From: Gelidibacter mesophilus DSM 14095
GTDB lineage: Bacteria > Bacteroidota > Bacteroidia > Flavobacteriales > Flavobacteriaceae
Reading direction: 5' to 3'
NCBI RefSeq assembly: GCF_000423005.1
Contig: NZ_AUHD01000010.1
Location: 62,001 to 126,000, forward strand
Length of the DNA stretch: 64,000 nucleotides
Positions 34,941 through 61,180 of the stretch are shown piece by piece; the first letter of the stretch is position 1, and every line of letters begins with the position of its first letter. The notes beneath the pieces were generated by a model. It did no database searches. It was not told where the DNA came from and saw only the letters and a program-made list of their open reading frames with translations. The translations under genes were made by a program, and so were the position numbers.

Positions 34941-35780
34941 TTACATTAAATTGAGTTGATATTTGACATAACTTCTGGTTAGAAGCTCAAATTTCTTGTA
35001 ATTTGGAACTCTAATCCGTGTTGATTTGATATCTAGTGCGGGCGTGCTTTTTAACTTTTTGAGCAATTGGTTATAATAGCGGTAGGCCATAAAAACGCCA
35101 AACTTTGCTTCAATGGGCAGTTCTTTAATTCCTTTTAATCCCAGGGTAAAATCATGTTCTATGTCGTCAATTATCTTTTGTTTGGAAGTTTCATCCAATT
35201 GGTTCAGGTTGGTGTTGGGAAAATAGGTGCGACTTAAATCTTCATAATCCGCTTTCAAATCTCTTAAAAAATTCACTTTCTGGAAGGCAGAACCCAAGCT
35301 CATGGCGCCCTCCTTCAAATTTTCATATTTTTCCTGATCTCCTTTTACGAATACTTTTAGGCACATAAGCCCAACTACATCCGCAGAACCATAAATATAC
35401 ATTTTGTAATCGGACTCAGTCAGATAATCCGTTTTGTGCAGATCCAATCGCATACTTTTCATAAAGGAATCTACAAGATGTTTATCAATATGATATTTGT
35501 GGTAGGTTTCCTGAAACGCATTTAGAATGGGGTTGAGACTGATTTTATGTGCAATCGCAAGTTCCAAATCTTCTTCAAATCGATTAAAAAGCGCTGTTTT
35601 ATCATAATCATGAAAAGAATCTACAATCTCATCGGCAAAGCGCACAAATCCGTAAATGTTGTAAATATCCTGCCGGATACTTCTGGCCAACATTTTGGTA
35701 GCGAGAGAAAATGAAGTGCTGTAAGAGGCCGTGACTGCCATACTACATTTATGTGAAACAATATCAAATAGCGCTTTCAT
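34941..35780 (-). CDS. crtB: Phytoene synthase
   Basis: A 279-residue squalene/phytoene synthase family enzyme that joins two geranylgeranyl diphosphates to form phytoene, the first committed carotenoid step. The substrate-magnesium motifs are visible: YGFVRFADEIVDSF (first DxxxD, near 43-56) and VNFLRDLKADYEDLSRTYFP (second, near 168-187). Length is standard. Its start overlaps the end of crtI by 17 bp. No crtE (GGPP synthase) is in the window. Confidence 0.95.
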   Translation of the reverse strand: MKALFDIVSHKCSMAVTASYSTSFSLATKMLARSIRQDIYNIYGFVRFADEIVDSFHDYDKTALFNRFEEDLELAIAHKISLNPILNAFQETYHKYHIDKHLVDSFMKSMRLDLHKTDYLTESDYKMYIYGSADVVGLMCLKVFVKGDQEKYENLKEGAMSLGSAFQKVNFLRDLKADYEDLSRTYFPNTNLNQLDETSKQKIIDDIEHDFTLGLKGIKELPIEAKFGVFMAYRYYNQLLKKLKSTPALDIKSTRIRVPNYKKFELLTRSYVKYQLNLM

Positions 35781-43865: not shown

Positions 43866-43946
43866 AACTACAATATTAATAAATTCAAGTCTTTTAATGA
43901 TGAATTCTCAATCCATAATTGTGAATTAATAAAAGTGTACCAGCAT

Positions 43947-43977
43947 CGAACAGGAAGTGTCTCAATACCGAACACTT
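43947..43977. promoter_or_regulatory. Candidate activator-binding repeats in the divergent region
   Basis: CGAACA occurs twice (43947-43952 and 43969-43974), 22 bp apart, two helical turns. The same stretch holds an inverted repeat AAGTGT-N11-ACACTT (43955-43960 and 43972-43977). The position, about 100 bp upstream of the adaptor gene, suits an enhancer for the NtrC-type regulator. No good sigma-54 promoter could be confirmed nearby, so this is tentative. Confidence 0.4.
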
Positions 43978-44072
43978 TCTCATCGTACTAATATGAGTAT
44001 TGTGCTGTAAATAAGTGAGTTATGTTTTTGGCATTATTTTGAACATGTATTAACTGTAAAACAACATATTAT

Positions 44073-45329
44073 ATGGACATCCAACTGGAAAAAAAGCGCT
44101 TTTCAACTCAAAAACTACTTATTATAGGTGGCATTATTCTTTTAATAGCACTCATCGTTTTTGTCATTTTCTCCTCAATGGGAGGTTCAAAGCTCAATGT
44201 GGAAAAAGAACGGATCAGTATTAATACGGTTGAAAAAGGTGTTTTTCAGGAGAATATTCCTGTCAACGGCATTGTGATGCCAATTACAACCATCTATTTA
44301 GACGCGTTGGAAGGTGGCCGTGTGGAAGAGAAATTTGTAGAAGATGGCGCCATCCTTAAAAAAGGCGATCCTATTTTGAGATTATCAAACACTGATCTAG
44401 AATTGAGCCTCATCAATCAAGAAACACAAGTGTACAATCTATTGACCCAAATGCAGATCTCGCAAAATGCAGCCCGTCAGAACACCATCAATAAACTTAA
44501 CCAAAACACAGATGTGGAGAGTGGGTTAATAGAGGCCAAAAGGCTTTATGAGCTCAATAGCAAATTGTACGAGAAAAAAGTGATTGCAAGGCAGGACTAC
44601 ATCAAGGCAAAAAACGAATATGATTATCAAAAGGAACGAATGCAGTTGTCCAAACAAATATTAAGTGAGGATTCGATTGCCGTAAAACAGGAACAAAGCC
44701 AAGTACAGAATAGTTACGCACGTACACAAAACGCATTGGAACTGATGCGCAGAAAAGTAGCGGACTTAGTCGTAAAAGCACCTGTTGATGGACAAGTGAC
44801 GTCCTTGGATGCTGAAATTGGCCAATCAAAAAACAAAGGGGAACGTTTGGGACAAATTGATGTTTTGAGCGGATTTAAAGTCCGCGCAGATATCGATGAA
44901 CATTATATCTCTCGAATTTATAATGGACAAACAGGGAAGTTTACCATGAGCGGGAAAAGTTACAGTTTGAGCATTAAAAAAGTGTACACGCAGGTGACCA
45001 ATGGGAGATTTCAAGTGGATATGCAGTTTGAAGAAGATATCCCGGACGGCATCCGTCGCGGGCAGACTTTGCAGATTCGGTTGGCTTTAAGCGACGAGAA
45101 ACAAGCAGTGTTGATTCCGAAGGGCGGATTTTTTCAACAAACTGGCGGCAATTGGATCTTTAAGATCAGCGAAAATGGAGACACCGCCTACAAGGTGGAT
45201 ATTACTTTAGGCAGTCAGAACACAGAGTATTATGAAGTGCTTAGCGGCCTCCAACCCGGGGATAAAGTTATTACCAGCAGTTATGACAATTATGGAGACG
45301 TGCAGGAATTGGTATTGAAATCCCCCTAA
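44073..45329 (+). CDS. HlyD/MacA-like periplasmic adaptor (membrane fusion protein)
   Basis: A 418-residue membrane fusion protein that would link an inner-membrane ABC permease to an outer-membrane channel. A membrane anchor (LLIIGGIILLIALIVFVIF, about 15-33) is followed by a lipoyl-like beta strand region (VNGIVMPITTIYLDALEGGRVEEKFVEDGAILKKGDPIL), a long coiled coil (about 125-235, repeated Gln and Leu) and the second lipoyl half (VVKAPVDGQVTSLDAEIGQS), then a beta-barrel domain. This is the first gene of the efflux operon, followed after 143 bp by an ATPase. No TolC gene is in the window. Confidence 0.92.
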   Translation: MDIQLEKKRFSTQKLLIIGGIILLIALIVFVIFSSMGGSKLNVEKERISINTVEKGVFQENIPVNGIVMPITTIYLDALEGGRVEEKFVEDGAILKKGDPILRLSNTDLELSLINQETQVYNLLTQMQISQNAARQNTINKLNQNTDVESGLIEAKRLYELNSKLYEKKVIARQDYIKAKNEYDYQKERMQLSKQILSEDSIAVKQEQSQVQNSYARTQNALELMRRKVADLVVKAPVDGQVTSLDAEIGQSKNKGERLGQIDVLSGFKVRADIDEHYISRIYNGQTGKFTMSGKSYSLSIKKVYTQVTNGRFQVDMQFEEDIPDGIRRGQTLQIRLALSDEKQAVLIPKGGFFQQTGGNWIFKISENGDTAYKVDITLGSQNTEYYEVLSGLQPGDKVITSSYDNYGDVQELVLKSP

Positions 45330-45472
45330 ACCCCCGAAGTGGGACTTCTAGCAAGACCTGCAAGATAGGAGCCAAGCGGTCCTTTTAGGTCTTATAACGA
45401 GGAAATAACCAATCTCCTTGGAGATCTGAAAAGAAAATAACCAATAGAAAACCAACGATAATTATTACAACC

Positions 45473-46159
45473 ATGATAAAAATAACAGATTTAGAAAAGT
45501 ACTACGCTACCGAGGAAGTCCGAACGATTGCGCTCAACAAATTGTCCTTTAACGTAAAGGAAGGGGAATTTGTGGCTATAATGGGTCCATCCGGTTGCGG
45601 GAAGTCCACCTTGTTGAATATTTTGGGACTGTTGGACGATCCGGACGGTGGCAGCTTTATTTTTAATGACATTGAAGTCTCTGGCTTTAATGAACGGAAA
45701 CGTGCTGAACTGCGCAAGCACAACATCGGCTTCGTGTTCCAAAGCTTTAACTTGATCGATGAATTGACGGTCTTTGAAAACGTGGAGTTGCCGCTGATCT
45801 ACACTGGGGTGAAAGCGGCCGAAAGAAAGGAACGTGTAGAAGCGGTTTTGGAAAAAATGCAGATTATGCATCGTAGAAAACACTTTCCGCAGCAATTATC
45901 CGGAGGACAACAACAGCGGGTGGCGGTAGCCAGGGCGGTAGTGAACAATCCTAAACTCATCCTTGCCGATGAGCCTACCGGGAATTTGGACAGCAGCAAT
46001 GGTAATGAGGTAATGGCCCTGTTGACCGAATTAAACGAAGCAGGAACTACGATCATCATGGTGACCCACAGCGAACACGATGCTAAATACAGCCACCGTA
46101 TCATCCGTATGCTCGATGGGCAGAAGGTGACGGAGAATATTTTGATGGAGGCCCCCTAA
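45473..46159 (+). CDS. ABC transporter ATPase (MacB/LolD type)
   Basis: A 228-residue ABC ATPase with all motifs: Walker A GPSGCGKST, Q-loop FVFQSFNLIDELTV, signature LSGGQQQRVAVARAVV, Walker B LILADEPTGNLDS and H-loop VTHSEHDA. The sequence of the Q-loop and NLDS is typical of the LolD/MacB/FtsE group, which pairs with MacB-like permeases. It should power the permeases downstream; with five permeases and one standard ATPase it may be shared. Between the adaptor and this gene lies a GC-rich spacer of 143 bp. Confidence 0.95.
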   Translation: MIKITDLEKYYATEEVRTIALNKLSFNVKEGEFVAIMGPSGCGKSTLLNILGLLDDPDGGSFIFNDIEVSGFNERKRAELRKHNIGFVFQSFNLIDELTVFENVELPLIYTGVKAAERKERVEAVLEKMQIMHRRKHFPQQLSGGQQQRVAVARAVVNNPKLILADEPTGNLDSSNGNEVMALLTELNEAGTTIIMVTHSEHDAKYSHRIIRMLDGQKVTENILMEAP

Positions 46160-46160
46160 T

Positions 46161-46240
46161 CCCCGAAGGGGTAATGCTTACTCGAACGGGAGTATAAATA
46201 AAAACTAAGAATTGAGTCATTGCGAGGCACGAAGCAATCT
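46161..46240. repeat. Class A spacer repeat: CCCCGAAGGGG palindrome plus GTCATTGCGAG element
   Basis: CCCCGAAGGGG (46161-46171) is a small hairpin. GTCATTGCGAGGCACGAAGC to 46240 is a short copy of the REP-like family; ATTGC and GCAAT can pair. The order of these two elements and the intervening words (GCTTACTCG-ACGG, TATAAATAAA) repeat in the next spacer (48731-48812). Confidence 0.75.
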
Positions 46241-46271
46241 AACTGACAGAGATTTTTAAAACATAAGAAAA

Positions 46272-48719
46272 ATGATACGGAATTATTTCAAAATCGCATG
46301 GCGAAACATCTGGAAGAACAAACTCTTCTCTGTCATTAACGTGATCAGTTTAGCCATTGGCTTGAGTGCGTCTTTTGTGATTGGCCTCATGGTGTATTAT
46401 GACTTTACTTTTGATAACTTCCATAAAGATGGAGATTTAATCTATCGCATTACTACGGTTTACGGTTCTCCGGAAGGGGAGGATTATAATTACGGGGTCT
46501 CCGTGCCATTGATTGCAGAAGTCAAGGAAAATTTATCGGGGATTCAACTAGCGACTGCTTTCTTTACGACCGAGCCGAGTAGGGTAATGAACACGTCCTT
46601 TTCAAAAGCTTATAACAATCCTGAAAAAGTAATTTTTGCCGATCCCGATTTTTTTAAGTTTCTTGATTATGAATGGCTTGCGGGCCACCCCGAATCGGCC
46701 ATGGCATCTCCCAATCAGGTGGTGCTTACTGAAACGCGGGCCAAAAAATATTTCCCCAATAAAAGCTATCAAGACATCTTGGGTGAAACGCTTGTTTATG
46801 ACGATTCCGTTTCCACAACGGTTACGGGCATAGTCGCCAATTTTAAAGAACGCACCGACTTTACTTTTGAGGAAATGATTTCCTTGGAAACCGGGAAGCA
46901 GTCTTATCTGAAAGATCAAATAACGGACGGAAATTGGAACAGCACAAGTTCCATGACCCAATTGTTTGTCAAACTCAACAGTAAAAATGCCCTTTCTACC
47001 GCAAAAAAGCAGCTTAACGATATCGCCAAGAAAAACGAAAGTAAAGATGCAGTGAAATATGGCGAATATCGCAGCTTTTATATGCAACCCTTGAAGGAGC
47101 TCCATTTTGGCGAAACCGATGGCATCTTTGATTTTACGGAGCATGTCGCCAACAAAAAGGTATTGCTGGGTTTGTTATGGATTGCCGCATTTTTATTGCT
47201 TTTAGGATGCATCAATTTCATCAATCTCAATACCGCGCAAGCCACGCAACGTGCCAAGGAAATCGGGATTCGTAAAACTTTGGGCAGCTCCAAAAAACAA
47301 TTGGTATTTCAATTTCTTTGGGAAACCTTTTTGCTGACCCTTATTTCGGGATTGTTCTCTATTGTTTTGGCCGCAGGATTGCTAAACGTATTTGAAGATT
47401 TTACGCCGGAAGGACTTCATTTTGGATTGTTTGCAGATCCGCTGATCATCGCATTCGCAGGTGTTTTGATTGTCACCATTAGTCTGCTTTCAGGATTCTA
47501 TCCGGCCTTGGTGCTCTCGTCATTCAAGCCGATCTCAGTATTGAAAAATCGGGTGTTTTCGACCAATAACCATATTTCACTGAGAAAGGGATTGATTGTT
47601 TTTCAGTTTATTATTGCCCAAGTCTTTATTATTTCAACGGTTGCCGTAGGACGACAGATCCATTTTTTGATGAAAAAGGATATGGGCTTTAAAACCGAAG
47701 CCATCACCAACATCAGAACGCCTTGGATGGATTCTTCCCTTGAAAAGCGTGAAGTGTTGATCCAAAAATTAAATTCCATCCCGCAAATAGAGAACGTAAG
47801 TCTTGGCGGTTCGCCGCCGGCATCTTTTAACACCCATGCTACTAATGCCATTTATCGGGATGGAAAAAAAGAAATACGTAGCGATCTGGAATTATTATAT
47901 GGCGATGATCAGTATTTGGAATTATACGACATCCATCTTATGGCAGGTCGCCAACTTCGTAATGATTCCATCCATGAATATATTATCAATGATACTTATC
48001 GCAAATTATTGGGATTTGAAACGCCGCAGGAAGCAATCGGCAAAATGGTTAGCCAAGGGGAAGAGGCCGTGCCCATTGTTGGAGTGATGGAAGATTTTAA
48101 TCAGCGATCCCTAAAATCGAAAATTCAGCCCATGGCCTTTGTGGGCGATTGGAACCGAAAGCGCTATTCGCAATTCAATACGCTGCATCTTCAATTGAAC
48201 AAAGCAAGTTCCGACAATTGGCCAACCGCGATTGCAAAGGCCGAAGAAGCATGGAAAAGAATGTATTCCGAATCGGACTTTAAAATGGAATTTATAGACC
48301 AATCCATTGCAAAGTTTTACCTACAGGAACGCAGTATGACCAAGCTGCTCAATTGGGCGACACTTCTTTCGGTCTTGATCAGCTGTCTTGGGCTATTGGG
48401 CTTGGTGATCTATACCACCGAAAGACGGGTCAAGGAAATTGGGATCCGCAAGATTTTGGGAGCCTCATTGGTACAGCTCAATGTATTGCTTTGTAAGGAC
48501 TTTTTAGTGCTGGTCCTTTTGGCTTTTGTCATTGCGGCACCTATTGCGTGGTATGGATTACATAATTGGCTTCAGGATTATGCCTATAAAACGAATTTGA
48601 GCTGGTGGATTTTTGCGGTCAGCGGATTGGGAATAAGTGGATTGGCTCTGGTAATTATGAGTGTGAAAACACTTTCTACGTCCAGTAAGAATCCGGTAAA
48701 AAGTTTACGAACCGAATAA
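46272..48719 (+). CDS. MacB/FtsX-like ABC permease 1 of 5
   Basis: An 815-residue permease with the double MacB layout: helix (about 20-42), periplasmic MacB_PCD domain, three FtsX helices (near 295-430), helix, second PCD domain, three FtsX helices (near 695-800). It starts MIRNYFKIAWRNIWKNKL. The cytosolic coupling motif RAKEIGIRKTLG appears before the middle helices and is echoed by RVKEIGIRKILG in the second half. Its last residues KNPVKSLRTE match those of permeases 2-4. The role is ATP-driven export or extraction of a peptide, lipoprotein or drug; the substrate is unknown. Confidence 0.92.
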   Translation: MIRNYFKIAWRNIWKNKLFSVINVISLAIGLSASFVIGLMVYYDFTFDNFHKDGDLIYRITTVYGSPEGEDYNYGVSVPLIAEVKENLSGIQLATAFFTTEPSRVMNTSFSKAYNNPEKVIFADPDFFKFLDYEWLAGHPESAMASPNQVVLTETRAKKYFPNKSYQDILGETLVYDDSVSTTVTGIVANFKERTDFTFEEMISLETGKQSYLKDQITDGNWNSTSSMTQLFVKLNSKNALSTAKKQLNDIAKKNESKDAVKYGEYRSFYMQPLKELHFGETDGIFDFTEHVANKKVLLGLLWIAAFLLLLGCINFINLNTAQATQRAKEIGIRKTLGSSKKQLVFQFLWETFLLTLISGLFSIVLAAGLLNVFEDFTPEGLHFGLFADPLIIAFAGVLIVTISLLSGFYPALVLSSFKPISVLKNRVFSTNNHISLRKGLIVFQFIIAQVFIISTVAVGRQIHFLMKKDMGFKTEAITNIRTPWMDSSLEKREVLIQKLNSIPQIENVSLGGSPPASFNTHATNAIYRDGKKEIRSDLELLYGDDQYLELYDIHLMAGRQLRNDSIHEYIINDTYRKLLGFETPQEAIGKMVSQGEEAVPIVGVMEDFNQRSLKSKIQPMAFVGDWNRKRYSQFNTLHLQLNKASSDNWPTAIAKAEEAWKRMYSESDFKMEFIDQSIAKFYLQERSMTKLLNWATLLSVLISCLGLLGLVIYTTERRVKEIGIRKILGASLVQLNVLLCKDFLVLVLLAFVIAAPIAWYGLHNWLQDYAYKTNLSWWIFAVSGLGISGLALVIMSVKTLSTSSKNPVKSLRTE

Positions 48720-48730
48720 AAGCCCTCTAG

Positions 48731-48812
48731 CCCCCGAAGGGGGAACGCTTACTCGGACGGTATTATAAATAAAAAATTCAGAACTGGGTCATTGCGAGGC
48801 GCGAAGCAATCT
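48731..48812. repeat. Class A spacer repeat, second copy
   Basis: CCCCCGAAGGGGG (48731-48743) followed by GCTTACTCGGACGG and then GTCATTGCGAGGCGCGAAGC to 48812. It is the counterpart of 46161-46240 and shows that the spacer before permease 2 is related to the one before permease 1. Confidence 0.75.
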
Positions 48813-48840
48813 AATTGTGAAGTCTTTAAAACATAAAATT

Positions 48841-51261
48841 ATGATCAGAAATTATATAAAAATCGCTTGGCGAAGTCTTCAGAAGAATAAACTTCAGACA
48901 ATTATCAACCTATTGGGCTTAACCGTGGGTACGGTGTGCTGTTTGAGCATCCTTATCTATGTGATCGCCCAATTTGGGTATGAAGAACAATTCTCAGATT
49001 CGGAATCCATTTATAGAATTAATACGGTCATCACAGAGCACGCTAATGGCGAGACGTCCGCAGGGTCATCGCCACCCATTGCTATGGCGATGAAAGCCGA
49101 TTTCCCGGAAGTCGTTGAGGCCTGTAGAGTTGTATATTTTGGCGCCGGTAACGACGGACTTTTAAGAAATCCAGAAACGGATCAAGCCTATTATGAATCC
49201 CGAGGTTACCTGGCAGATTCTACATTCTTCAAAGTATTCGATTACCCTTTTGTTGAAGGCACTTCAAAAGGTGCTCTAACAGCACCAAATTCAATCGTGC
49301 TTTCTGAAACCTTGGCCAAAAAACTCTTCGGATCAAAAAATGCCTTGAACAAAACTTTGATCCTGGGAAGTGGGGCGGCAGAACAGACGCTTAACATAAA
49401 AGGTGTTTTTAAGGATGGTTTTGGAAAATCGCACTTAAATCCCAACTATATTTTGACTATGGATTCCGGTGGATTAGGCCAACAGGTATTGTCCGTCACT
49501 AATTTTGCTACGGAAAATTTCGCTAAAAGTTATGTCAAATTAAAGACGGGAACAAAAGCATCCCGTGTGGAAGCAAAACTTCCGGGATTTTTAGAACGAC
49601 ATGGAGCGAAGGACTTTGCTGAGGTTGGTTTCCACAAAATATTATCCTTGCAAAAAATCACGGATATTCATCTGTATTCAAAAGATGTCAGATTTCAGAT
49701 TGGGAGCGTTTCGGACATTAACTATTTGTATATGTTGCTTCTTTTGGCCCTGTTCATCCAATTGGTGGCCTGTATCAATTTTATCAATCTCAGTACGGCC
49801 CACGCCAATAAGCGGGCTAAGGAAATTGGGGTGCGTAAAGCCATCGGTGCAGATAGGAAGGATTTGGTACGGCAGTTTTTAGGAGAGTCCGTGCTGCTGT
49901 CACTTGTCGCTTCGGTGCTCAGCATTCCACTAACCGCGCTGGCATTACCTTACGTAAATACCTTGACCCAAGGTGACATCGGTTATGTCAATCTCTTCGA
50001 TTGGCGACTTTTAATAGCACTCTTGGTTTTGGGGGTCACGACGGGGCTTATTGCTGGCCTGTATCCTGCGCTTATTTTGTCAGCCATTAAACCTGTAAAA
50101 GTTTTAAAAGCGTCCGTAAATCTTAATTTGGGGAATGGTTATTTGCGAAAAGCATTGGTGGTGTTTCAGTTTGTGGTTTCTATCGGCTTGATTTCTACAG
50201 TCATCATCATCACCCAACAGGTAAACTATGCCCAACAGATGGATATGGGTTTTGATAAAGAGAATCTGATTGCGATCCGGTTGGGAACACAAGATCTTTC
50301 CGAGAACTTCGGTGCCATTCAATCCAACTTCCAAACGATAAATGGGATTAGTAAAGTTGCGGGTACCAATTATTATCCGTCGGCATTTATCATGGGTGAT
50401 ATGGGGTTGATCCTTCCGGGAGGAAACTTGGCCGATCGCACCATCGTGCATTATAATGGGGTGACACCAGAATACCTCGAAACGGTCGAAACTGCGCTGC
50501 TTGTTGGTCGCACCTTACGCTCTAATGATGGTAATCAGATTTTGGTCAACAAGGCAACGCTTGATGCTTTCAATATTTCTTTGGAAAAGTCTGTTGGTTC
50601 AAAGCTTGTGAACTCCAATGGTGGCGAAACCGATGAATTCGAGATTGTAGGGGTGACGGCCGATTTTAATTTTGGAAGTTTAAAGGATAAAATAGAGCCC
50701 ATGTTGCTCTACAACGAAACCGAACCCGATTGGGTGCTGCTCAAAGCAGACACCCAAAATTTCGAGGCTCTTCTTAATAACCTTGAAAGCGCTTGGAAAA
50801 CCATAAATCCCAACACGCCGTTTGTGTTCACTTTTGTGGATAAGGAAGTCGAGAAATTATATGCGGAAGAAAAACGCTTGGGCAAAATATCGGTGGTGTT
50901 TACGTCTTTGGCCATATTGATTAGTTGCTTAGGATTGTTCGGTCTGATTTCTTTCGTGGCAGAGCAGAAGAAAAAGGAGATTGGCATCCGTAAAGTCTTG
51001 GGTGCAAGTGTGCAAAATGTAGTCCGGCTATTAACCAAGGATTTTTTAAGGTTGGTAGGTATTGCTTTTATCATTGCGACACCATTGGCCTATATCGTTA
51101 TGCAAAACTGGTTGGAGGATTTCCCATACCGAATTGCCATCGAATGGTGGGTGTTTGTGATTGCAGGAGCTGCGGCGTTGATTATAACGCTTTTGACCGT
51201 GAGCTTTCAAGCCATAAAAGCAGCGGTTGCGAATCCGGTAAAAAGTTTACGAACCGAATAA
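48841..51261 (+). CDS. MacB/FtsX-like ABC permease 2 of 5
   Basis: An 806-residue double-MacB permease. I take the ATG at 48841, giving the family start MIRNYIKIAWRSLQKNKL; an in-frame GTG at 48817 would add eight residues that lie in the spacer repeat. The first coupling motif reads RAKEIGVRKAIGADRKDL and the second KKKEIGIRKVLGASVQNV. Helices fall near 25-45, 295-420, 440-460 and 690-800. The C-terminus AIKAAVANPVKSLRTE is nearly identical to that of permease 3, at both the protein and the DNA level. Confidence 0.92.
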   Translation: MIRNYIKIAWRSLQKNKLQTIINLLGLTVGTVCCLSILIYVIAQFGYEEQFSDSESIYRINTVITEHANGETSAGSSPPIAMAMKADFPEVVEACRVVYFGAGNDGLLRNPETDQAYYESRGYLADSTFFKVFDYPFVEGTSKGALTAPNSIVLSETLAKKLFGSKNALNKTLILGSGAAEQTLNIKGVFKDGFGKSHLNPNYILTMDSGGLGQQVLSVTNFATENFAKSYVKLKTGTKASRVEAKLPGFLERHGAKDFAEVGFHKILSLQKITDIHLYSKDVRFQIGSVSDINYLYMLLLLALFIQLVACINFINLSTAHANKRAKEIGVRKAIGADRKDLVRQFLGESVLLSLVASVLSIPLTALALPYVNTLTQGDIGYVNLFDWRLLIALLVLGVTTGLIAGLYPALILSAIKPVKVLKASVNLNLGNGYLRKALVVFQFVVSIGLISTVIIITQQVNYAQQMDMGFDKENLIAIRLGTQDLSENFGAIQSNFQTINGISKVAGTNYYPSAFIMGDMGLILPGGNLADRTIVHYNGVTPEYLETVETALLVGRTLRSNDGNQILVNKATLDAFNISLEKSVGSKLVNSNGGETDEFEIVGVTADFNFGSLKDKIEPMLLYNETEPDWVLLKADTQNFEALLNNLESAWKTINPNTPFVFTFVDKEVEKLYAEEKRLGKISVVFTSLAILISCLGLFGLISFVAEQKKKEIGIRKVLGASVQNVVRLLTKDFLRLVGIAFIIATPLAYIVMQNWLEDFPYRIAIEWWVFVIAGAAALIITLLTVSFQAIKAAVANPVKSLRTE

Positions 51262-51270
51262 CGTTAATCA

Positions 51271-51301
51271 GACCTCACAGGTTTCAAAAACCTGTGAGGT
51301 C
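51271..51301. repeat. Class B spacer palindrome, copy 1
   Basis: GACCTCACAGGTTT and its reverse complement AAACCTGTGAGGTC (14-bp arms) around a 3-base loop. The hairpin lies 9 bp after the permease stop codon and 17 bp before the next ATG. No T-tract follows, so it is not a standard terminator. Confidence 0.9.
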
Positions 51302-51318
51302 TTAGAAAATATAAAATT

Positions 51319-53718: not shown

Positions 53719-53727
53719 CGTTAAATA

Positions 53728-53758
53728 GACCTCACAGGTTTCAAAAACCTGTGAGGTC
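53728..53758. repeat. Class B spacer palindrome, copy 2
   Basis: The 31-base palindrome (14-bp arms, 3-base loop) is identical to the copy at 51271-51301. The flanks TAACGTTAA upstream and TTAGAAAATATAAAATTATG downstream also match, so the whole spacer is duplicated. Confidence 0.9.
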
Positions 53759-53775
53759 TTAGAAAATATAAAATT

Positions 53776-56178
53776 ATGATCAGAAATTATTTTAAAATCG
53801 CGTGGCGGAACTTTAAAAAAAACAAAGTGTATTCGTTTATAAATATTTTCGGATTAGCACTTGGCCTTGCGGTGACTATGATTATCGGCTTATGGATTGT
53901 GGATGAGTTCAATTATAATTCCCATTTTAAAAATAGCGATCAGATAGCACAAGTCATGCAAAATAACACCATCAATGGCACAATCGAAACTAATGAAGGT
54001 TTACCATTGGCTTTGGAATTTCAATTGCGAGAAAACTTTGATGATGTTTTTGAATTGGTAGTTATGTCATCACGAAGTGACGAACGTTACTTAAGTGTTG
54101 GTGACAAAGTCTTCGCGACTAACGGACGATTTATGCAAATTGACGGTCCAGAGTTATTGGAGTTGGAAATGATTGAAGGATCAAGGAAAGGGCTCAAAGA
54201 TAGCAACGCCATTCTTTTATCTGAAACGACAGCGAAAAAACTTTTTGGAAATTTATCCGCCATAGGAAAATCTGTGGTGTCAAATAATGAATATCCTATG
54301 ATGGTTACTGGGGTTTATAAGGATATTAGCACCAATAATAGCTTTAGTGATCTGCACTTTATAATGCCATTTAAACATTGGATGTCTACACAATGGGGAT
54401 GGCTTGAAAATCAGGATTCTAATTGGACTTATAATCCCTTTTTCATTTATGTGAAACTATCAAAAAACGCCGACTTGGCAGCTTTAAATGCTCGAATTAA
54501 GAACGTAAAGAAAGACAATCGTTCTGGTGGGGATTCCTTTAACTCGGAATTGTTTGTCTTCCCAATGGTAAAGTGGTATTTGCACTCTAATTTTGAAAAC
54601 GGACAACAGGTTGGAGGACGTATTGAAAACATCTGGCTTTTTGGAATTATCGGTTGGTTTGTATTAATTCTCGCCAGTATTAATTTTATGAATCTTAGCA
54701 CTGCAAGATCAGAAAAACGTGCGCTTGAAGTAGGGATTAGGAAATCCATCGGCTCCACTCGAATACAGTTGATATATCAATTTTTGAGTGAATCGTTTTT
54801 GGTTGTTTTATTCGCATTTGTCATCGCTATTGGGTTGGTGATAGTATCACTGCCTGCATTCAATTCCATCGCAGGGAAAGATGTTGTGTTTCCTTGGTCA
54901 AATGTCCTTTTTTGGATGATCTCGGTCATTTTTATTGGTGTCACAGCGTTAATTTCTGGCAGTTATCCTGCATTATACTTGTCGTCTTTTAAACCCATCA
55001 AAGTATTGAAAGGTACTTTCAGGTTGGGCACATTTGCAGCAGTTCCTAGAAAAATACTCGTGGTAGCTCAATTTACAGTTTCTATTGCACTAATCATCGG
55101 AACCCTAATAGTAAAGAACCAAATTGCCTATAGTAAAGATAGACCTGTGGGAATTGAAAGTGCGCATTTGATTCAAATACCATCTTCAAGCAAAAACTTC
55201 TCAGGAAAATATGAACTTATTCGTAATGAGTTTATGGCTTCTGGTGCTGTCACTGAAATGGGGTGGGGGACGAGTCCAACTACTAGCGTATGGAATTATG
55301 CATCGGGTTATGATTGGGAAGGGAAGCCTGCTGATTTTCAAGAAAATTTTGCCCTAATGGCAGTTTCTTTTGATTATATAAATACCGTAGGAATGAAAAT
55401 AATAGAAGGGCGTTCATTTTCTCGGGATTTTGCGACCGATTCAAATGCTGTGGTTTTAAACAAAGCGGCTGTCGAATATATGGGCATTCAAAACCCTATA
55501 ATAGGCAAGTACATTCGACACAGTCATCCAGGCCCGCAACAAGTCCCAATGCAGATTGTGGGCGTTGTAGAAGACGTGATCAATGAGTCTGCTTATGACC
55601 CAGTGTCGCCACAGATGTATCAATTTGGTCGTGGCACTGGCGGTTTCTATTATTTGAAACTAAATTCAGAAAACAGTACTAGTAAAAATCTAATACGCAT
55701 TGAAAAAGTATTTAAGGATAATTTCCCGAACCTCCCTTTTAGATATGATTTTGTAGATGAAGAATACGCACAGACTTTTGTGGCCGAAGAACGGATTGCT
55801 AGCCTTGCTGGGGTCTTTACGGTTTTAGCTATTGTGATCAGTTGTCTCGGTCTGTTTGGATTAGCGGCTTTTGTTGCAGAACAACGAACCAAAGAAATTG
55901 GGGTGCGGAAAGTACTTGGAGCAAGTGTCTCCAATTTATGGATTTTATTATCTAAAGATTTTATTCTCTTAGTGGCAATCGCACTTCTTATTGCTACACC
56001 TGTCGCCTATTATTTTATGAGCGAATGGATTGAGAAATTCTCATATCGAACAGAGATATCCGCAGGACTATTTTTTATTGCCGGTTTGGGCGTTTTGCTG
56101 CTGACAGTTATAACAGTAAGTTTTCAAGCCATAAAAGCAGCGATGGCAAACCCGGTGAAGAGTTTGAGAACAGAGTAA
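53776..56178 (+). CDS. MacB/FtsX-like ABC permease 4 of 5
   Basis: An 800-residue double-MacB permease. Start MIRNYFKIAWRNFKKNKV, end AIKAAMANPVKSLRTE. The first coupling region is RSEKRALEVGIRKSIGSTRIQL and the second QRTKEIGVRKVLGASVSNL. The first 35 bases of the gene and the preceding spacer match permease 3 almost exactly, whereas the body is more AT-rich and diverged, which suggests an older duplicate whose ends have been kept alike. Confidence 0.92.
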   Translation: MIRNYFKIAWRNFKKNKVYSFINIFGLALGLAVTMIIGLWIVDEFNYNSHFKNSDQIAQVMQNNTINGTIETNEGLPLALEFQLRENFDDVFELVVMSSRSDERYLSVGDKVFATNGRFMQIDGPELLELEMIEGSRKGLKDSNAILLSETTAKKLFGNLSAIGKSVVSNNEYPMMVTGVYKDISTNNSFSDLHFIMPFKHWMSTQWGWLENQDSNWTYNPFFIYVKLSKNADLAALNARIKNVKKDNRSGGDSFNSELFVFPMVKWYLHSNFENGQQVGGRIENIWLFGIIGWFVLILASINFMNLSTARSEKRALEVGIRKSIGSTRIQLIYQFLSESFLVVLFAFVIAIGLVIVSLPAFNSIAGKDVVFPWSNVLFWMISVIFIGVTALISGSYPALYLSSFKPIKVLKGTFRLGTFAAVPRKILVVAQFTVSIALIIGTLIVKNQIAYSKDRPVGIESAHLIQIPSSSKNFSGKYELIRNEFMASGAVTEMGWGTSPTTSVWNYASGYDWEGKPADFQENFALMAVSFDYINTVGMKIIEGRSFSRDFATDSNAVVLNKAAVEYMGIQNPIIGKYIRHSHPGPQQVPMQIVGVVEDVINESAYDPVSPQMYQFGRGTGGFYYLKLNSENSTSKNLIRIEKVFKDNFPNLPFRYDFVDEEYAQTFVAEERIASLAGVFTVLAIVISCLGLFGLAAFVAEQRTKEIGVRKVLGASVSNLWILLSKDFILLVAIALLIATPVAYYFMSEWIEKFSYRTEISAGLFFIAGLGVLLLTVITVSFQAIKAAMANPVKSLRTE

Positions 56179-56187
56179 CGTTAATTA

Positions 56188-56218
56188 GACCTCACAGGTT
56201 TCAAAAACCTGTGAGGTC
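56188..56218. repeat. Class B spacer palindrome, copy 3
   Basis: The same 31-base palindrome, third copy, with matching flanks (TAACGTTAATTA upstream, TTAGAAATATAAAATTATG downstream, one A shorter than the other two). Confidence 0.9.
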
Positions 56219-56234
56219 TTAGAAATATAAAATT

Positions 56235-58655
56235 ATGATCAGAAATTATTTTAAAATCGCATTCCGCAACCTTTGGAAAGATCGGACGTTTACAGCGCTC
56301 AACATTGTCGGACTTACCGCAGCCTTTGGCGTGGCCATCTTGCTGGGCATGTTTGGGGTGTTTCAACTGTCTTTTGACCGTTTCCATAAAAATGGCGATC
56401 AACTTTATCAGGTATATTCCGAAGACCAAGACCCCGATGGTGTTGATGCCAATATCTCAAAATCGGAGCCTTTTGCAGCTGCGCTCCAACAAGAGGTGCC
56501 CGGGGTTGAGAAGATTACCCGATTTAACGGGAGGGGAATTTTGATCTCCTCTGCTGGAAAACAATTCCAAATGACAGGTGCTTACGTGGATCCCGATTTT
56601 TTCGAGATGTTTAGCTTTCCAATTATTAGTGGCGATAATAAAAACCCGATTACTTCGGAAACTTCCATCGCCATCACGGAAAAAACTGCCAAGCTTATTT
56701 TTGGATCTGAAAATGCCATCGGCAAAACGGTCACCATTTTGAGGGATGGAGAAGAGGTTCCGTTTACGGTCAATGCCATTGTGGAGGATTTTCCAGAAAC
56801 CAGTTCTTTGGGATTTGATGCGGTCTTGAATTTTAAAAGCCAACCGAGAGATTCCTATGCAGAAACCATTGGGCGATGGGATATGGAAAACCATGAGGTG
56901 TATATGCAATTGGCCAAGGGCATGACGCCTGTACAATTTGAGAATAACACCGTCGCTTTTACCAATCTACATTATAAGGACGAAATAGAGAGTGCCAAGC
57001 GTGACGGTGCTCAACCCGATGCCAGCGGTCATTTTCGTCAGCAAAAATTGGTCTCGGTATTCGATCTCCGATTTGCAAACTTTAATCAAGGCCCTGTAAG
57101 CATTGACCAAACCATGCCCTTTTTGGTTTTAGGGATTGCCTTGCTCATCCTGTTTATCGCCTGCGTCAATTTCATCAATATGAGCATTGCCAAAAGTGCG
57201 CATCGTTTGCGCGAAATTGGAATGCGCAAAACATTGGGTGCGAATATGCGCCAATTGTTCTTTCAGTTTTGGGGGGAGAGTATTTTGGTGTTTTTGATGG
57301 CCTTTGGTTTGGGGGTTTTAACGGCGATTTTGCTTTTAAAGCCTTTTCAAACCTTGTTTAGAACGAAAGCGTCCTTTGCGAGTTTGGCAGAGCCTTCGGT
57401 GTTGATAGGCGTTTTTTTGACCGTGGTTTTAATAACGCTTCTCGCCGGTGGCTATCCCGCTTTATTAATGAGTCGCTTGGGAACTTTACAAAGTTTAAAG
57501 GGTAAACTGGAGAACAGCGGAAAAAACCGGTTGCGCAACAGTTTGATGGTGTTGCAATTTGGTATTGCCATCCTCTTGATCAGCGGAACGCTGGTACTCT
57601 GGCAACAAGTGGAATTTATGGGAACTAGGGATTTGGGCTTTAACAAGGAGCAGGTCATCGCCTTTCCGCTCAATGGAAAACGTAATGACCAACAAGCGAT
57701 ACAATTGATGCGTGACGCACTTCAAAACAAGCCAAACATCATTAGTATTACGGCTTCAAACAATATTTTGGGTCTTGGCAAGGATGGTACACGCGCTACT
57801 AGCGTGCTTGGTTTTGACTACAAGGGTCGCGGGGTGTCAACCCACATGGTGGTTGTGGATGCCGATTATGTGGAGACCTTGGACCTTGATTTGATAAAAG
57901 GACGTTCGTTTCATAAAAATTTGGCCAGTGATAGTTTGTCCATTATCATCAACGAGTCGATGGCAAAACAGCTGAATGAAAAGGAAATTTTAGGTTCCAG
58001 GGTTATTTTGGACGATTCCGTGGCCTATTCTGTTGTGGGTGTGCTAAAGGATTTTAATTTTCAGGAACTCGACCAATCCATTGCGCCAATGACGCTTTTT
58101 GCTTTTCCGGATTCGAATTTAAGAAACGTGTATGTAAAAGTGTCATCACAGAATCTAGAACAATCCTATACTGATGTGAAAGCAGCTTGGGCGTCTATTG
58201 AACCTAATGCAGAGTTTCAAGGCTCTTTTTTAAATGAAAACATTGAAAGAACCCTCCGGAATGAACGCACCATGACCACGATGATCGGCAGTGGAAGTCT
58301 TCTCGCCATTTTATTGAGCTGTATTGGTCTCTTCGCCATGTCTCTGCTGATCGTAACGCAAAGAAGAAAGGAAATAGGCATACGGAAAGTGGTTGGCGCC
58401 AGCGTGGCAACCATCACTGTTTTATTGACCAAAGATTTCTTGAAACTCGTAGGCATTGCGTTTTTAATAGCCACACCAATTGCTTGGTATGCCTCATCAC
58501 AATGGTTGCAAAACTATGTGTATCGTATTGACTTAAGTTTTTGGCTGTTCTTGTCGGCCGGAATGATTGCCTTGGTAGTTGCGGTATGCACCATAAGCTT
58601 TCGCACGATACGGGCAGCTTTAAAAAACCCGGTGGAGAGTTTGAACACGGAATGA
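56235..58655 (+). CDS. MacB/FtsX-like ABC permease 5 of 5
   Basis: An 806-residue double-MacB permease, the most diverged of the set: MIRNYFKIAFRNLWKDRT at the start and RAALKNPVESLNTE at the end instead of AANPVKSLRTE. The coupling regions are HRLREIGMRKTLGANMRQL and QRRKEIGIRKVVGASVATI. Helices are near 20-40, 295-415, 430-450 and 690-795. It is the last permease; a 120-bp spacer leads to the GIN-domain gene. Confidence 0.92.
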   Translation: MIRNYFKIAFRNLWKDRTFTALNIVGLTAAFGVAILLGMFGVFQLSFDRFHKNGDQLYQVYSEDQDPDGVDANISKSEPFAAALQQEVPGVEKITRFNGRGILISSAGKQFQMTGAYVDPDFFEMFSFPIISGDNKNPITSETSIAITEKTAKLIFGSENAIGKTVTILRDGEEVPFTVNAIVEDFPETSSLGFDAVLNFKSQPRDSYAETIGRWDMENHEVYMQLAKGMTPVQFENNTVAFTNLHYKDEIESAKRDGAQPDASGHFRQQKLVSVFDLRFANFNQGPVSIDQTMPFLVLGIALLILFIACVNFINMSIAKSAHRLREIGMRKTLGANMRQLFFQFWGESILVFLMAFGLGVLTAILLLKPFQTLFRTKASFASLAEPSVLIGVFLTVVLITLLAGGYPALLMSRLGTLQSLKGKLENSGKNRLRNSLMVLQFGIAILLISGTLVLWQQVEFMGTRDLGFNKEQVIAFPLNGKRNDQQAIQLMRDALQNKPNIISITASNNILGLGKDGTRATSVLGFDYKGRGVSTHMVVVDADYVETLDLDLIKGRSFHKNLASDSLSIIINESMAKQLNEKEILGSRVILDDSVAYSVVGVLKDFNFQELDQSIAPMTLFAFPDSNLRNVYVKVSSQNLEQSYTDVKAAWASIEPNAEFQGSFLNENIERTLRNERTMTTMIGSGSLLAILLSCIGLFAMSLLIVTQRRKEIGIRKVVGASVATITVLLTKDFLKLVGIAFLIATPIAWYASSQWLQNYVYRIDLSFWLFLSAGMIALVVAVCTISFRTIRAALKNPVESLNTE

Positions 58656-58775
58656 TCTTCTTAGCCCAGATTGAGGGATGCTTTCTCGGATATAGTGAGA
58701 AATTGTGCAATTGGCAGTCTACAGTCCAATTATTAAAGAACTTAAAAACAACACCAATACTAAAAATCAAATATT

Positions 58776-59519
58776 ATGATACGTTTAATTTTCATATTAG
58801 TAACACTCACTTTATCAGGTATTGAAGCTGCTGTTTCGCAGAATTCAGTAGCGGTGTCCAATTTTGATAAGATGATAATAAGTCCGCATATACAAGTGAC
58901 TTTAGTTCAGGGTTATGAGGAAACCGTGACGGTGGAAAGTAATAAGGTAAGTGATGAAAAACTTAATATTGAGGTCAATGGCAAAACCCTGCGCATTTAT
59001 CTGGAGGATGCCAAAGAAACCACCAAGGAGGAGATAGTTCAAGAAAATGGAATGAAAATGAAGCGTCCCATTTATAAGGGAACCGTCGTTATGGCGACGA
59101 TTACCTATAAGAACTTGGACGAGATTTCAGTGAGGGGCGAAGAAACCCTCGTGTGCAAAAGCGTCTTGAAAGGAAATAAATTCGACTTGAAAATTTATGG
59201 AATATCGCACATATTTCTAAACGATGTCAATCTAAAGAAACTTCACACGACGATTTATGGTGAGAGTGAATTGGTAATCAAATCAGGAACTATCCAATGT
59301 CAAAAATATACGGCTTATGGTGAAAGCAAAGTAAATGCCTTAGCGATCTCAAATGAAGAAACGAAAATCTCGGCCTATGGCGAAGCAGAATTTAAAATCA
59401 ATGCTTCAAAAAAAATAAAAATCACATCTTATGGTGAAGCTTCTCTGGAATATAAAGGAGATGCCGAAATTAATAAAGGTTTAAATATAGGGGGTGTGAG
59501 AATTAAGAAAGCTCTCTAA
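58776..59519 (+). CDS. Exported GIN-domain (DUF2807) protein
   Basis: A 247-residue exported protein. A signal peptide MIRLIFILVTLTLSGIEAAVSQ is followed by a DUF2807 (GIN) domain, a right-handed beta-helix fold found in Bacteroidetes surface or periplasmic proteins. The last 110 residues carry five copies of a YG-E/I-S/A motif (IYGISHI, IYGESEL, AYGESKV, AYGEAEF, SYGEASL) at about 20-residue intervals, one per coil of the helix. Function is not established; it may be a substrate or accessory of the neighbouring exporter, which is inference. Confidence 0.88.
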   Translation: MIRLIFILVTLTLSGIEAAVSQNSVAVSNFDKMIISPHIQVTLVQGYEETVTVESNKVSDEKLNIEVNGKTLRIYLEDAKETTKEEIVQENGMKMKRPIYKGTVVMATITYKNLDEISVRGEETLVCKSVLKGNKFDLKIYGISHIFLNDVNLKKLHTTIYGESELVIKSGTIQCQKYTAYGESKVNALAISNEETKISAYGEAEFKINASKKIKITSYGEASLEYKGDAEINKGLNIGGVRIKKAL

Positions 59520-59545
59520 TGCTCAAAGGAAGAATTCAGGTCTGA

Positions 59546-59596
59546 ATCATTGCAAGGCACCTATTGGACTCACTGGTTTTAATAACCTGTGAGGTC
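59546..59596. repeat. Degenerate copies of both spacer repeats
   Basis: TCATTGCAAGGCAC (59547-59560) is an eroded GTCATTGCGAG element, and GACTCACTGGTTTT to 59596 (ending AACCTGTGAGGTC) is an eroded class B palindrome with one arm damaged. Both families standing side by side shows that they occupy the same kind of site. Confidence 0.65.
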
Positions 59597-59764
59597 TCTA
59601 AAAAAGATCAAAAATGACCAAAATCAGATTCCTAGTCACCCTTTTGTTTTTTTTTATTAATGAGGGGCTCCACAACAAAAGAGCAGTGAAAAAGGAGTCA
59701 GCAGTATGTAGTCTTGCCCTCAAAATGCCAATAAAAATTGTTATAATCAATAAAAAACACAACC

Positions 59765-60433
59765 ATGCTATTAGAACTAAACAACATATTCAAATGGGTC
59801 AATCAAGGTGGAAAGCGCATTTTTCTTCTCAGTGATTTGAATTTTAATGTAGAGGAGGGCGAGTTCATCTCAATAATGGGGCCGTCTGGTTCCGGGAAAT
59901 CGACCTTGCTCAACGTTATTGGCATGTTGGACGGATTTCAGGAAGGTGAATACAATTTTTTGAATCAGCCTGTCCACGCCATGAAGGATAAAGAGCGCTC
60001 TAAGCTGTACAAGGAATATATCGGTTTTGTATTTCAGGCCTACCATCTCATTGATGAATTGACCGTTTATGAAAATATTGAAACCCCTTTACTTTATAAA
60101 AACATAAAATCTTCTGAACGGAAAGCTTTAGTTGCCGATATGCTTGACCGATTCAATATTGTTGGGAAAAAGGATTTGTTTCCTAGCCAATTGAGTGGTG
60201 GGCAGCAGCAATTGGTAGGTATTTCCCGTGCCTTGATCACTAAGCCCAAGCTTATTTTGGCCGATGAACCCACCGGGAATCTGAATTCAAAGCAAAGCGA
60301 AGAGATCATGCAGCTTTTTAAAGAACTTAATCAAGAAGGCGTTACAATTATTCAGGCCACACATTCTGAAAGTAATGCGGCTTATGGCTCACGAATTTTA
60401 CATCTTTTGGATGGAAGACGGAATCCTCATTAA
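59765..60433 (+). CDS. Second ABC ATPase, diverged
   Basis: A 222-residue ABC ATPase of the LolD/MacB type. Walker A GPSGSGKST, Q-loop FVFQAYHLIDELTV, Walker B LILADEPTGNLNS and H-loop ATHSESNA are intact. The signature segment reads LSGGQQQLVGISRALI: the usual Arg after LSGGQQQ is Leu, and NLNS replaces NLDS in the D-loop. ATP hydrolysis may be altered. It stands 245 bp after the GIN-domain gene and has no permease of its own, so it may pair with one or more of the five permeases. Confidence 0.92.
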   Translation: MLLELNNIFKWVNQGGKRIFLLSDLNFNVEEGEFISIMGPSGSGKSTLLNVIGMLDGFQEGEYNFLNQPVHAMKDKERSKLYKEYIGFVFQAYHLIDELTVYENIETPLLYKNIKSSERKALVADMLDRFNIVGKKDLFPSQLSGGQQQLVGISRALITKPKLILADEPTGNLNSKQSEEIMQLFKELNQEGVTIIQATHSESNAAYGSRILHLLDGRRNPH

Positions 60434-60616
60434 AATAAATTATGAGTCCCCTGAATCCTATAATTAGAAAACATTTTGACCTTATGAATTTTTAACTTTT
60501 TAACAGGACAATTTTTTGTGGGCTCACAAACTCATAAATGTTTGAGAAATGATTTGCTAAAACCCATCAAAAGAGAGAGTTTTGTTCTTTATAAAAAATC
60601 AGAGCGCCTAATTTTT

Positions 60617-61180
60617 ATGGAGAATGAAAAATTTATTTTCTGCCTAGAAGCTGTTCCAGATGTTGATGATAGCCATAGCACTGAAGTAGTCTTGTGTCTA
60701 GAAGACATTGCCTTACGCCAAGGTATCACAAGTATTTATAAGGCCTGCGATACCATTGAGGGTTTGGAAGAAAGCCTGAACAACCTGTTATACGAAGATC
60801 ATAATTTTAAGGATTATGAAATTGTATATCTCGTTATTCCGGGAGAGGCCAACAATATCCGCATCAATGATTATTACTACAGTATTGAGGAAATTGCTGA
60901 ACTTTTTGAAGGCAGAATGAAAGGTAAAATCATACATTTTGCCAACAAAAAAATCTTGGACCTCACCGATGAGGAATCGCAGTATTTTTTGGACGTTACT
61001 GGAGCGCGTGCTATTTCAGGGTATGGATCTCAGATTGACGCCATTTCCAGTACCAATACTATAGATCGTGTGTTTTTTAGTTTGTATCAAGAAGATGATG
61101 ATCTTAAGGAAGTGGTTGAACAATTATTTCAAAAGCATTATAACCTCTGTAAACTGCTTGATTTCAGATTGTATTATTAG
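60617..61180 (+). CDS. Conserved hypothetical protein, 187 residues
   Basis: A 187-residue soluble protein I cannot assign. ATG 60617 gives MENEKFIFCLEAVPDVDDSHSTEVVLCLED, a strand-helix start; the in-frame extension to 60518 is AT-rich and looks non-coding. The middle section DYEIVYLVIPGEANNIRINDYYYSIEEIAELFEGRMKGKIIHFANKKIL has alternating strands and helices of a Rossmann-like or caspase/CHAT-like fold, and ends with FLDVTGARAISGYGSQIDAIS. In CHAT/caspase-like folds the strand before such a segment carries a catalytic His, but I do not see a convincing His-Cys pair. No signal peptide. Confidence 0.75.
   Translation: MENEKFIFCLEAVPDVDDSHSTEVVLCLEDIALRQGITSIYKACDTIEGLEESLNNLLYEDHNFKDYEIVYLVIPGEANNIRINDYYYSIEEIAELFEGRMKGKIIHFANKKILDLTDEESQYFLDVTGARAISGYGSQIDAISSTNTIDRVFFSLYQEDDDLKEVVEQLFQKHYNLCKLLDFRLYY

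Follow-up and report, generated by a model that had tools for sequence, protein, structure and literature searches.

Type VII ATP-binding cassette (ABC) transporters, such as MacB, LolCDE and YbbAP, couple ATP binding and hydrolysis to transmembrane changes that perform work on the periplasmic side of the membrane, and each half of the YbbP permease contacts its ATPase through a coupling helix (PMC12646458). Here we describe a locus of Gelidibacter mesophilus DSM 14095, contained in a 64-kb stretch of contig NZ_AUHD01000010.1 (the window, in whose numbering all coordinates are given), where five tandem double permeases are framed by an adaptor and two ATPases. Among the closest described systems, MacB is an ATPase fused to a single permease and LolCDE contains two half-size permeases; we know of no permease array in either MacAB or LolCDE. 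DarBCD adjoins the darobactin biosynthesis genes and, to our knowledge, has one permease, no second ATPase type and no array, while acidobacterial duplicated orphan permeases (ADOP) are described as having no neighbouring ATPases.

Our best explanation of the locus, to which we give a probability of about two in three, is a modular type VII ABC exporter, in which a constant chassis would energise interchangeable double permeases. The chassis would comprise the adaptor (A), both ATPases (D1 and D2), and a sensor kinase and response regulator (HK and RR) activating the unit through a sigma54-type promoter. Each permease would be a complete two-halved body with its own periplasmic domains, and since each holds both halves and conserved coupling segments, any of them could dock on the shared ATPases. 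Different permeases would recognise different periplasmic or membrane-held molecules, and permease cassettes would be gained, lost, moved between genera and inserted between D1 and D2, gene ends and spacers being where recombination would place them. The data presented below directly support the frame, its varying set of permeases, the turnover of cassettes, a promoter-like element, the coupling motifs and the separate D2 type, and they give strong signs of transfer.

The array and its described relatives

All genes named in a preliminary description of this DNA, namely one adaptor, one LolD/MacB-type ATPase, five permeases, a GIN protein and a second ATPase, were located where it had placed them, with Pfam support, on the + strand in the order A-D1-P1-P2-P3-P4-P5-GIN-D2. 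A (44073–45329, 418 aa) is a DarC-like periplasmic adaptor of the HlyD/MacA type (HlyD_3, PF13437), and D1 (45473–46159, 228 aa) is an ATPase of the DarD/LolD type (ABC_tran). The permeases are P1 (46272–48719, 815 aa), P2 (48841–51261, 806 aa), P3 (51319–53718, 799 aa), P4 (53776–56178, 800 aa) and P5 (56235–58655, 806 aa); for P2, the ATG at 48841 is the likelier start, with a GTG at 48817 (814 aa) as the alternative. A GIN-domain (DUF2807, PF10988) protein of 247 aa (58776–59519) and D2 (59765–60433, 222 aa, ABC_tran) complete the array. Each permease matches FtsX twice and MacB_PCD once (as in P1) or two times (as in P2), and all five are open over their full length with pairwise identities of 28–36% in an alignment check, which bears out the earlier claim of intact, diverged permeases. 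Identity is high at the N terminus (first 20 residues), within the coupling segments and over the C-terminal 110 residues; the periplasmic parts are the least alike (about 0.10–0.2). Across the whole genome (4.43 Mb, 55 contigs), MacB_PCD has 16 matches. Nine lie in the array and six in proteins of 400–459 aa encoded on other contigs, and the last falls in a frame of 853 aa on contig C10. This frame adjoins another ATPase and is the sole double permease outside the array in this genome. An adaptor of this type occurs once in the genome, the next matches having E 5e-8 or worse.

We modelled the structure of P4 with AF2 (60-row alignment, pLDDT 83.7, pTM 0.79). The model contains two periplasmic domains and, by manual count, eight long membrane-length helices, compared with 10 transmembrane helices given for YbbP (PMC12646458). 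Its best match in the PDB is YbbAP (9ge6), near full length (E 2.4e-20, TM-score 0.50, 13% identity), followed by MacB, with LolE and BceB also among the best matches; by sequence, the best PDB match is MacB (5nik, 7.3e-28). The MacB_PCD core and FtsX domain of type VII transporters are present in P1–P5, and the fold of solved members is seen in the P4 model.

Comparison with individual systems shows likeness to several and membership in none of those tested. DarBCD (NF038008, NF038010, NF038007) likewise has a separate double-FtsX permease (model of 777 positions), an adaptor and an ATPase, and DarC and DarD are the best NCBIfam matches of A (180.7 bits, cut-off 450), D1 (297.4 bits, cut-off 375) and D2 (242.9 bits, same cut-off); P1–P5 reach 81.7–168.8 bits against the darobactin permease model (cut-off 700), so that adaptor, ATPases and permeases all stay below the equivalog cut-offs. 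No darobactin biosynthesis genes were found among the ten genes searched together with HK and RR, the search being limited to these and not extending to the rest of the window. The best NCBIfam match of P1–P5 is the ADOP model TIGR03434, covered at full length with 259–313 bits, below its cut-off of 622.3, and the window array, framed by D1 and D2, differs from ADOP in having ATPases next door. ADOP copies number 28 and 33 in two Dyadobacter genomes by RAST annotation (PMC11573002). MacAB-TolC and LolCDE share MacB_PCD/FtsX permeases, a LolD-like ATPase and a MacA-like adaptor with the array. Adaptor A is of the MacA/RND type (HlyD_3; TIGR01730 at 136.5, over the cut-off of 94.9) but does not attain the MacA equivalog (45.5 vs 342), and ATPase and permease are separate genes here, unlike the fused MacB. 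The LolD equivalog is not attained either (220.9 vs 307.75), and the permeases are full double permeases rather than half-size ones. The system is a type VII ABC variant near DarBCD, MacAB, YbbAP and ADOP, and by the tests made it stands outside DarBCD, ADOP, MacAB and LolCDE.

A further comparison comes from outside this group. MsmX/MsmK systems are type I importers, not type VII, and their permeases are not known to form an exchangeable array. They resemble the arrangement proposed here in that one multitask ATPase serves several sugar-importer permeases (PMC7658222). In Bacteroides thetaiotaomicron, BT2494-97, comprising an ATPase, a permease and an adaptor, is listed as up 2.0–2.8-fold in iron shortage (PMC10434189). 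In open PMC text, we found no account of arrays like the one described here.

YbbAP-TesA, which like the array combines a double type VII permease with separate ATPases and provides the best fold match, raises the alternative that the permeases do other type VII envelope work than export, such as lipid or lipoprotein extraction or peptide protection, with partner proteins as in YbbAP-TesA. This alternative overlaps our best explanation, being compatible with shared ATPases, and we regard it as somewhat unlikely. It draws on the description of YbbAP as presenting membrane compounds to an esterase (PMC12646458), and on the esterase, hydrolase, S41 or GIN proteins carried by a few arrays; the small number of arrays with partner enzymes counts against it. 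YbbAP-TesA also has one permease and no adaptor, whereas our operon includes a HlyD/MacA-type adaptor, whose best match, below cut-off, is the adaptor of the darobactin exporter, and an adaptor was seen in 10 of 20 stretches picked by D2, with several of the remaining loci extending past the fetched DNA. Its presence hints that substrates may leave by way of an outer-membrane channel whose gene lies at another locus.

Constant frame and variable permease set

We searched 149 genomes of the family and found the adaptor, at E 1e-40, in 46 of them, with 51 matches including the window's own. From these, 49 loci covering the 50 other matches were fetched, which together with three congeners and the window gave 53 loci, stretches that ran off being extended. 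Within the genus Gelidibacter, four of nine genomes, the window's included, have the adaptor. In the other five it was not found at E 1e-40, and the whole system is for that reason probably absent from them.

Arrays that open with A and D1 and close with D2 make up 32 of the 53 loci, including the window. These D2-closed arrays hold 2, 2, 3, 3, 3, 4 (six arrays), 5 (seven arrays), 6 (four arrays), 7, 7, 8, 10, 10, 11, 11, 13, 15 and 27 permeases of at least 700 aa, one of the 11 permeases of locus L021 being a 706-aa piece of a broken gene, and the 32 arrays show 32 different arrangements (with the first 23 permeases compared in the largest, L013). The preliminary description had envisaged exchangeable permeases behind one adaptor–ATPase pair, and this variety of permease sets within a constant frame agrees with it. 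D2 follows the last permease seen in 31 of the 32 arrays, although later permeases may be missed because some stretches end shortly past D2; in the exception, L002, one permease lies beyond D2 and another between A and D1. The 27-permease array of genome G018 (L013) opens with HK-RR-A-D1, closes with D2 and also includes one GIN and one hydrolase gene. RR stands upstream of A in the fetched close relatives (except L036), and also in L001, L004, L006, L009 and L013, the distant arrays for which the upstream region was fetched.

A second scan, of named genomes, reached 10 kb past the adaptor and took in the best 80 of 466 loci, from Gelidibacter, Aequorivita, Leeuwenhoekiella, Winogradskyella, Aquimarina and other genera. 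Eight of the 80 were set aside as already-sampled genomes with 100% identical permeases. The order HK-RR-A-D1 holds in 70 of the remaining 72, and the first three permeases form 59 different strings among 68 of these loci, the third permease being sometimes cut. The modular array is thus widespread rather than peculiar to one genome.

The same variation bears on whether the permeases assemble into a single large hetero-oligomer or work jointly on one substrate in the manner of LolC/LolE. Their genes are indeed co-localised and the spacers mostly short, as this would require, but each permease already contains both halves, and a number that ranges from 2 to 27 in 32 arrangements, all unlike, makes such a complex highly improbable.

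Private ATPases elsewhere, which the preliminary description had named as the finding that would speak against sharing, do not account for the permeases. A P4 search in 18 of the 46 adaptor-bearing genomes gave 110 matches, corresponding to 109 double permeases once two pieces of one gene were joined, and 101 of the 109 lie in the array, three in a second adaptor locus and five elsewhere.

Some arrays (L032, L034, L040 and L013) contain genes for enzymes, namely an esterase (PF00756), an S41 peptidase or an alpha/beta hydrolase, with similar hydrolases in L040 and L013 and similar esterases in L032 and L034. The in-array hydrolases and GIN proteins may be partners of single permeases.

Two ATPase types and permease coupling

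D1 is the standard ATPase that had been claimed, with LSGGQQQR and the D-loop aspartate present in all 64 sequences compared. D2 had been described as a second, diverged ATPase. In all 52 D2 sequences the arginine of LSGGQQQR is gone (Leu in 50, Ile in one, Val in one) and the D-loop aspartate is replaced (Asn in 41, His in 10, Gln in one); conservation of the Walker A lysine, the Walker B glutamate and the H-loop histidine is at least 97%. D2 is therefore a conserved, distinct ATPase type and not a mere diverged copy. Because two conserved ATPases and a two-component system belong to the unit, the notion of one standard ATPase serving it is too simple. Identity to the window's D1 is 86–96% in close relatives, 80% in L036 and 63–71% in more distant loci; for D2 it is 77–96% in close and distant loci alike, and in the same relatives the best matches to P1–P5 mostly have 30–60% identity.

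D2 goes with multiple permeases: of the 36 uncut loci that hold at least two permeases, 32 have it, against none of 13 single-permease loci (four loci being cut; Fisher p 9e-9, a value overstated because the loci are related). Among 395 genomes of the phylum, 74 encode an ATPase of the D2 type. We fetched 20 of the 74 contexts, chosen by their D2 rather than by an adaptor, and two or more permeases precede D2 in 12 of these. In L097, L099 and L101, from other Bacteroidota families, D2 comes right after D1 or one small open reading frame away, with the permeases before or after the pair.

In the 211 permeases of D2 arrays, the coupling motif is nearly constant in both halves (first and second half, in per cent: R 98/89, E 94/100, G 97/91, R 82/100, K 98/97, G 100/100), whereas the mean frequency of the commonest residue over periplasmic 20-residue stretches is about 0.23–0.49. 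Such a pattern would be expected of permeases that have one motor in common and differ at their substrate ends. Physical sharing of D1, D2 and A among the permeases is the best, though inferred, reading of the locus, on which the gene numbers and these motifs bear indirectly. A D2-dependent class of coupling segments was considered and rejected, as there was no clear split among the 211 D2-array permeases, 13 from single-permease loci and nine from D2-less multi-permease loci.

A number of observations weigh against a chassis shared in this way. Since the adaptor served to select the loci of the family, its constancy is partly by construction. D2 is absent from the fetched stretch in four multi-permease loci (L004, L011, L038 and L045), and one of the genomes concerned, G001, has no D2 at E 1e-70, so that not every array needs D2. 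Outside the family, L095 has D2 with one permease and neither A nor D1 within 18 kb, and no permease was seen with D2 in L098, which is cut by a contig end, or in L100. The five double permeases lying away from any adaptor locus come from two of the 18 genomes (four in G120, one in G059). The outer-membrane channel family OEP has 30 matches in the window's genome and none on this contig. The four permeases of G120, at C3:541825-583690 and apart from the adaptor array, are possibly a second array or true orphans.

An alternative is that of two parallel transporters, in which D1 together with A powers a single permease or a few of them in a tripartite exporter and D2 alone drives the rest, each permease being dedicated to its ATPase. 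In its favour, D2 has conserved residues of its own that mark it as a separate type, it stands with a permease but no A or D1 in the L095 stretch, and the permease families f01 and f02, defined below, occur without an adjoining D2 in L004 and L038. Against it, permeases from the same families take up many different positions with respect to D1 and D2, no clear division is seen in the coupling motifs, and the direct or near-direct succession of D1 and D2 in L097, L099 and L101 suggests that the two are partners. We therefore consider parallel transporters unlikely, and within the shared chassis an asymmetric D1–D2 motor is plausible from the sequences compared.

Cassette turnover, junctions and promoter-like element

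We grouped 240 permeases of at least 700 aa (the last four of L013 being left out) at 43% by average linkage into 59 families, 26 of them singletons. The commonest family, f01, occurs in 29 loci, f02 in 22 and f06 in 11, and the window reads f06-f08-f07-f01-f04 from P1 to P5. For 211 of the 226 array permeases with a neighbour, the closest relative lies in another genome, with a median best identity of 64% to other genomes vs 37% to the best neighbour (226 permeases), from which we conclude that arrays are assembled from a shared cassette pool. The known families (at least 43% identity) also take in 195 of 207 complete permeases from the 72 further genomes, themselves drawn from the best 80 of 466 loci. 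Recent tandem duplication is ruled out as the origin of most permeases by the same 211 of 226, the exceptions being six f03 copies in L002 and four f12 copies in L042.

Turnover is visible among close relatives. The frame proteins of the three congeners are 86–96% identical, yet whole permeases differ: G. maritimus reads f05-f02-f59-f29-f07-f04, G. algens f02-f06-(f08 broken)-f05-f07-f01-(one broken) and G. gilvus (one broken)-f06-f07, with f07, the family of P3, 83–87% identical in the three. Whole cassettes have thus been gained and lost, and the borders of DNA blocks between congeners are mostly at or close to gene ends. In the gap between the first permease and the GIN gene of L032, a permease start is fused to its last codons, by eye an apparent excision scar.

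There are also strong signs, at sequence level, of transfer of cassettes between genera. Over 3753 pairs, permeases are less alike than the corresponding adaptors, with a median difference of 15 points, but some pairs are reversed. Family f05 is 93% identical between L031 and two Leeuwenhoekiella loci, where the adaptor has 77% (the median there being 58% and the 95% quantile 72%), and the corresponding DNA block of 91% identity extends in one comparison from 14 nt upstream of the start codon to 33 nt short of the stop, and in the other from the start codon to 51 nt past the stop. P5 has 77% identity to a permease from another genus vs 59% to the congener's permease, and a quick tree of 25 rows rejected a congener clade (log-likelihood 351 lower, p-AU 1.5e-5) for this pair, which had been selected for low identity before the tree test. 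Spread by plasmids received no support: a P4 search gave 10 plasmid records, all below 60% identity and typed non-mobilizable.

The junctions between the window's permeases are unusually alike. The P2–P3, P3–P4 and P4–P5 spacers (51262–51318, 53719–53775 and 56179–56234, + strand) are near identical though the flanking proteins have about 30% identity, and each contains the same palindrome, AGACCTCACAGGTTT-NNNN-AACCTGTGAGGTCT (at 51270–51302, 53727–53759 and 56187–56219), folding as RNA at about -25 kcal/mol and beating all 200 shuffles. At up to 3 mismatches the genome has 12 such sites, three of them in the array. We read the palindrome as a REP-like element because the genome's only match to a Y1-type (RAYT-like) transposase (L187, frame from 34742) sits between two copies, at C14:34689-34721 and 35311-35343. 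At the corresponding junctions, G. algens carries a different repeated sequence.

More generally, comparison of 136 spacers of 20–260 nt from arrays, in which spacers are mostly short, found 17 of 88 neighbouring pairs alike (score 0.6 or more) vs 8 of 281 non-neighbouring pairs of the same array. When locus labels were permuted, 1 of 2000 permutations attained the observed 25 alike pairs within loci; between loci, 181 of 8811 pairs also score high, those listed being mostly short AT-rich leaders. We read the likeness of neighbouring spacers as junction recombination or conversion, which would be the route by which cassettes are placed. Such homogenisation is local, not array-wide, because codon identity at conserved residues is barely higher within loci than between them (0.612 vs 0.552 over the first six columns, with similarly small differences mid-gene), and array-wide conversion of coding ends was rejected on these figures. 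The recurring leader CAATCAAAAAACGAACAATC was likewise rejected as a specific recombination site, since it is found at sites remote from permeases, too, as well as before adaptors; it looks like a translation-start leader.

HK (41189–42532) and RR (42522–43865) are encoded on the - strand ahead of A. HATPase_c (PF02518) is the sole Pfam match of HK, and RR is an NtrC-type regulator with a receiver (PF00072), a sigma54-interaction domain (PF00158, 223 bits) and a Fis-type helix-turn-helix (PF02954). RR reads GAFTDA; sigma54 activators usually read GAFTGA. Between RR and A, on the + strand, lie two tandem activator-like sites, GTGTACCAGCATCGAACA (43935–43952) and GTGTCTCAATACCGAACAC (43957–43975), and then a -24/-12-like element, TGGCAT-N5-T (44029–44040), at 72 nt downstream of where site 2 starts and 44 nt upstream of the ATG of A. 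Among 92 loci with a close adaptor, window included, TGGCA(C/T)-N5-T occurs upstream of A in 83 (shuffle mean 1.0), an activator-like site in 74 and both in 69, at a spacing of 70–72 nt in 61 of the 69 and 91–93 nt in the rest. A stricter site motif has 64 occurrences before A (in 62 of 125 loci), eight before a permease, one before D2 and five elsewhere or intragenic, and none on the reverse strand in 2.93 Mb. All eight permeases with the stricter site belong to f05, which numbers 40 genes when cut ones are counted, and each of the eight also has the promoter element; among the 464 other permeases there is none.

The positions -24 and -12 are those of the sigma54 promoter consensus, and we regard the element as a putative sigma54-type promoter. 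A textbook sigma54 pattern, with one mismatch allowed, found no match before A; the element emerged from comparing relatives, and its naming consequently relies on the RR domain and the general consensus. Scans for sigma70-like promoters (51 vs 40.3, standard deviation 6.2) and terminator-like structures (20 vs 17.9) gave results near chance.

Turnover of this kind could also mean that the arrays are neutral or amplified gene families, unspecialised and slowly decaying. Apart from the high turnover, what speaks for this is that four of 31 arrays contain broken permeases, five in all, of which three belong to congeners. In the same arrays 187 permeases are intact, so that inactivation of several permeases, the other finding that the preliminary description had said would count against it, is mainly not observed. 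Families are moreover kept across genera with their nearest relatives in other genomes, and the promoter-like element is conserved before the unit and before some f05 cassettes, which leaves decay with very little probability. Immediately 3' of D2, the window encodes a DUF6642 protein (60518–61180).

ABC exporters are usually treated as fixed subunit sets, and here the presumed specificity subunit is an exchangeable cassette, with 2–27 per locus, while motor, adaptor and regulator stay constant. If the permeases share a motor, the array would be a natural plug-in exporter that separates the needs of coupling from the needs of specificity, and comparing congeners that differ by single cassettes would offer a route to the substrates. 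It might also explain where 'orphan' duplicated permeases obtain their energy. Tentatively, we picture a combinatorial exporter for which Bacteroidota keep a family-wide pool of dozens of cassettes that might be loaded by recombination, magazine-like, between asymmetric D1–D2 motor ATPases under one two-component system, giving strain-specific sets for export or protection, a principle that may extend to the powering of orphan ADOP permeases.

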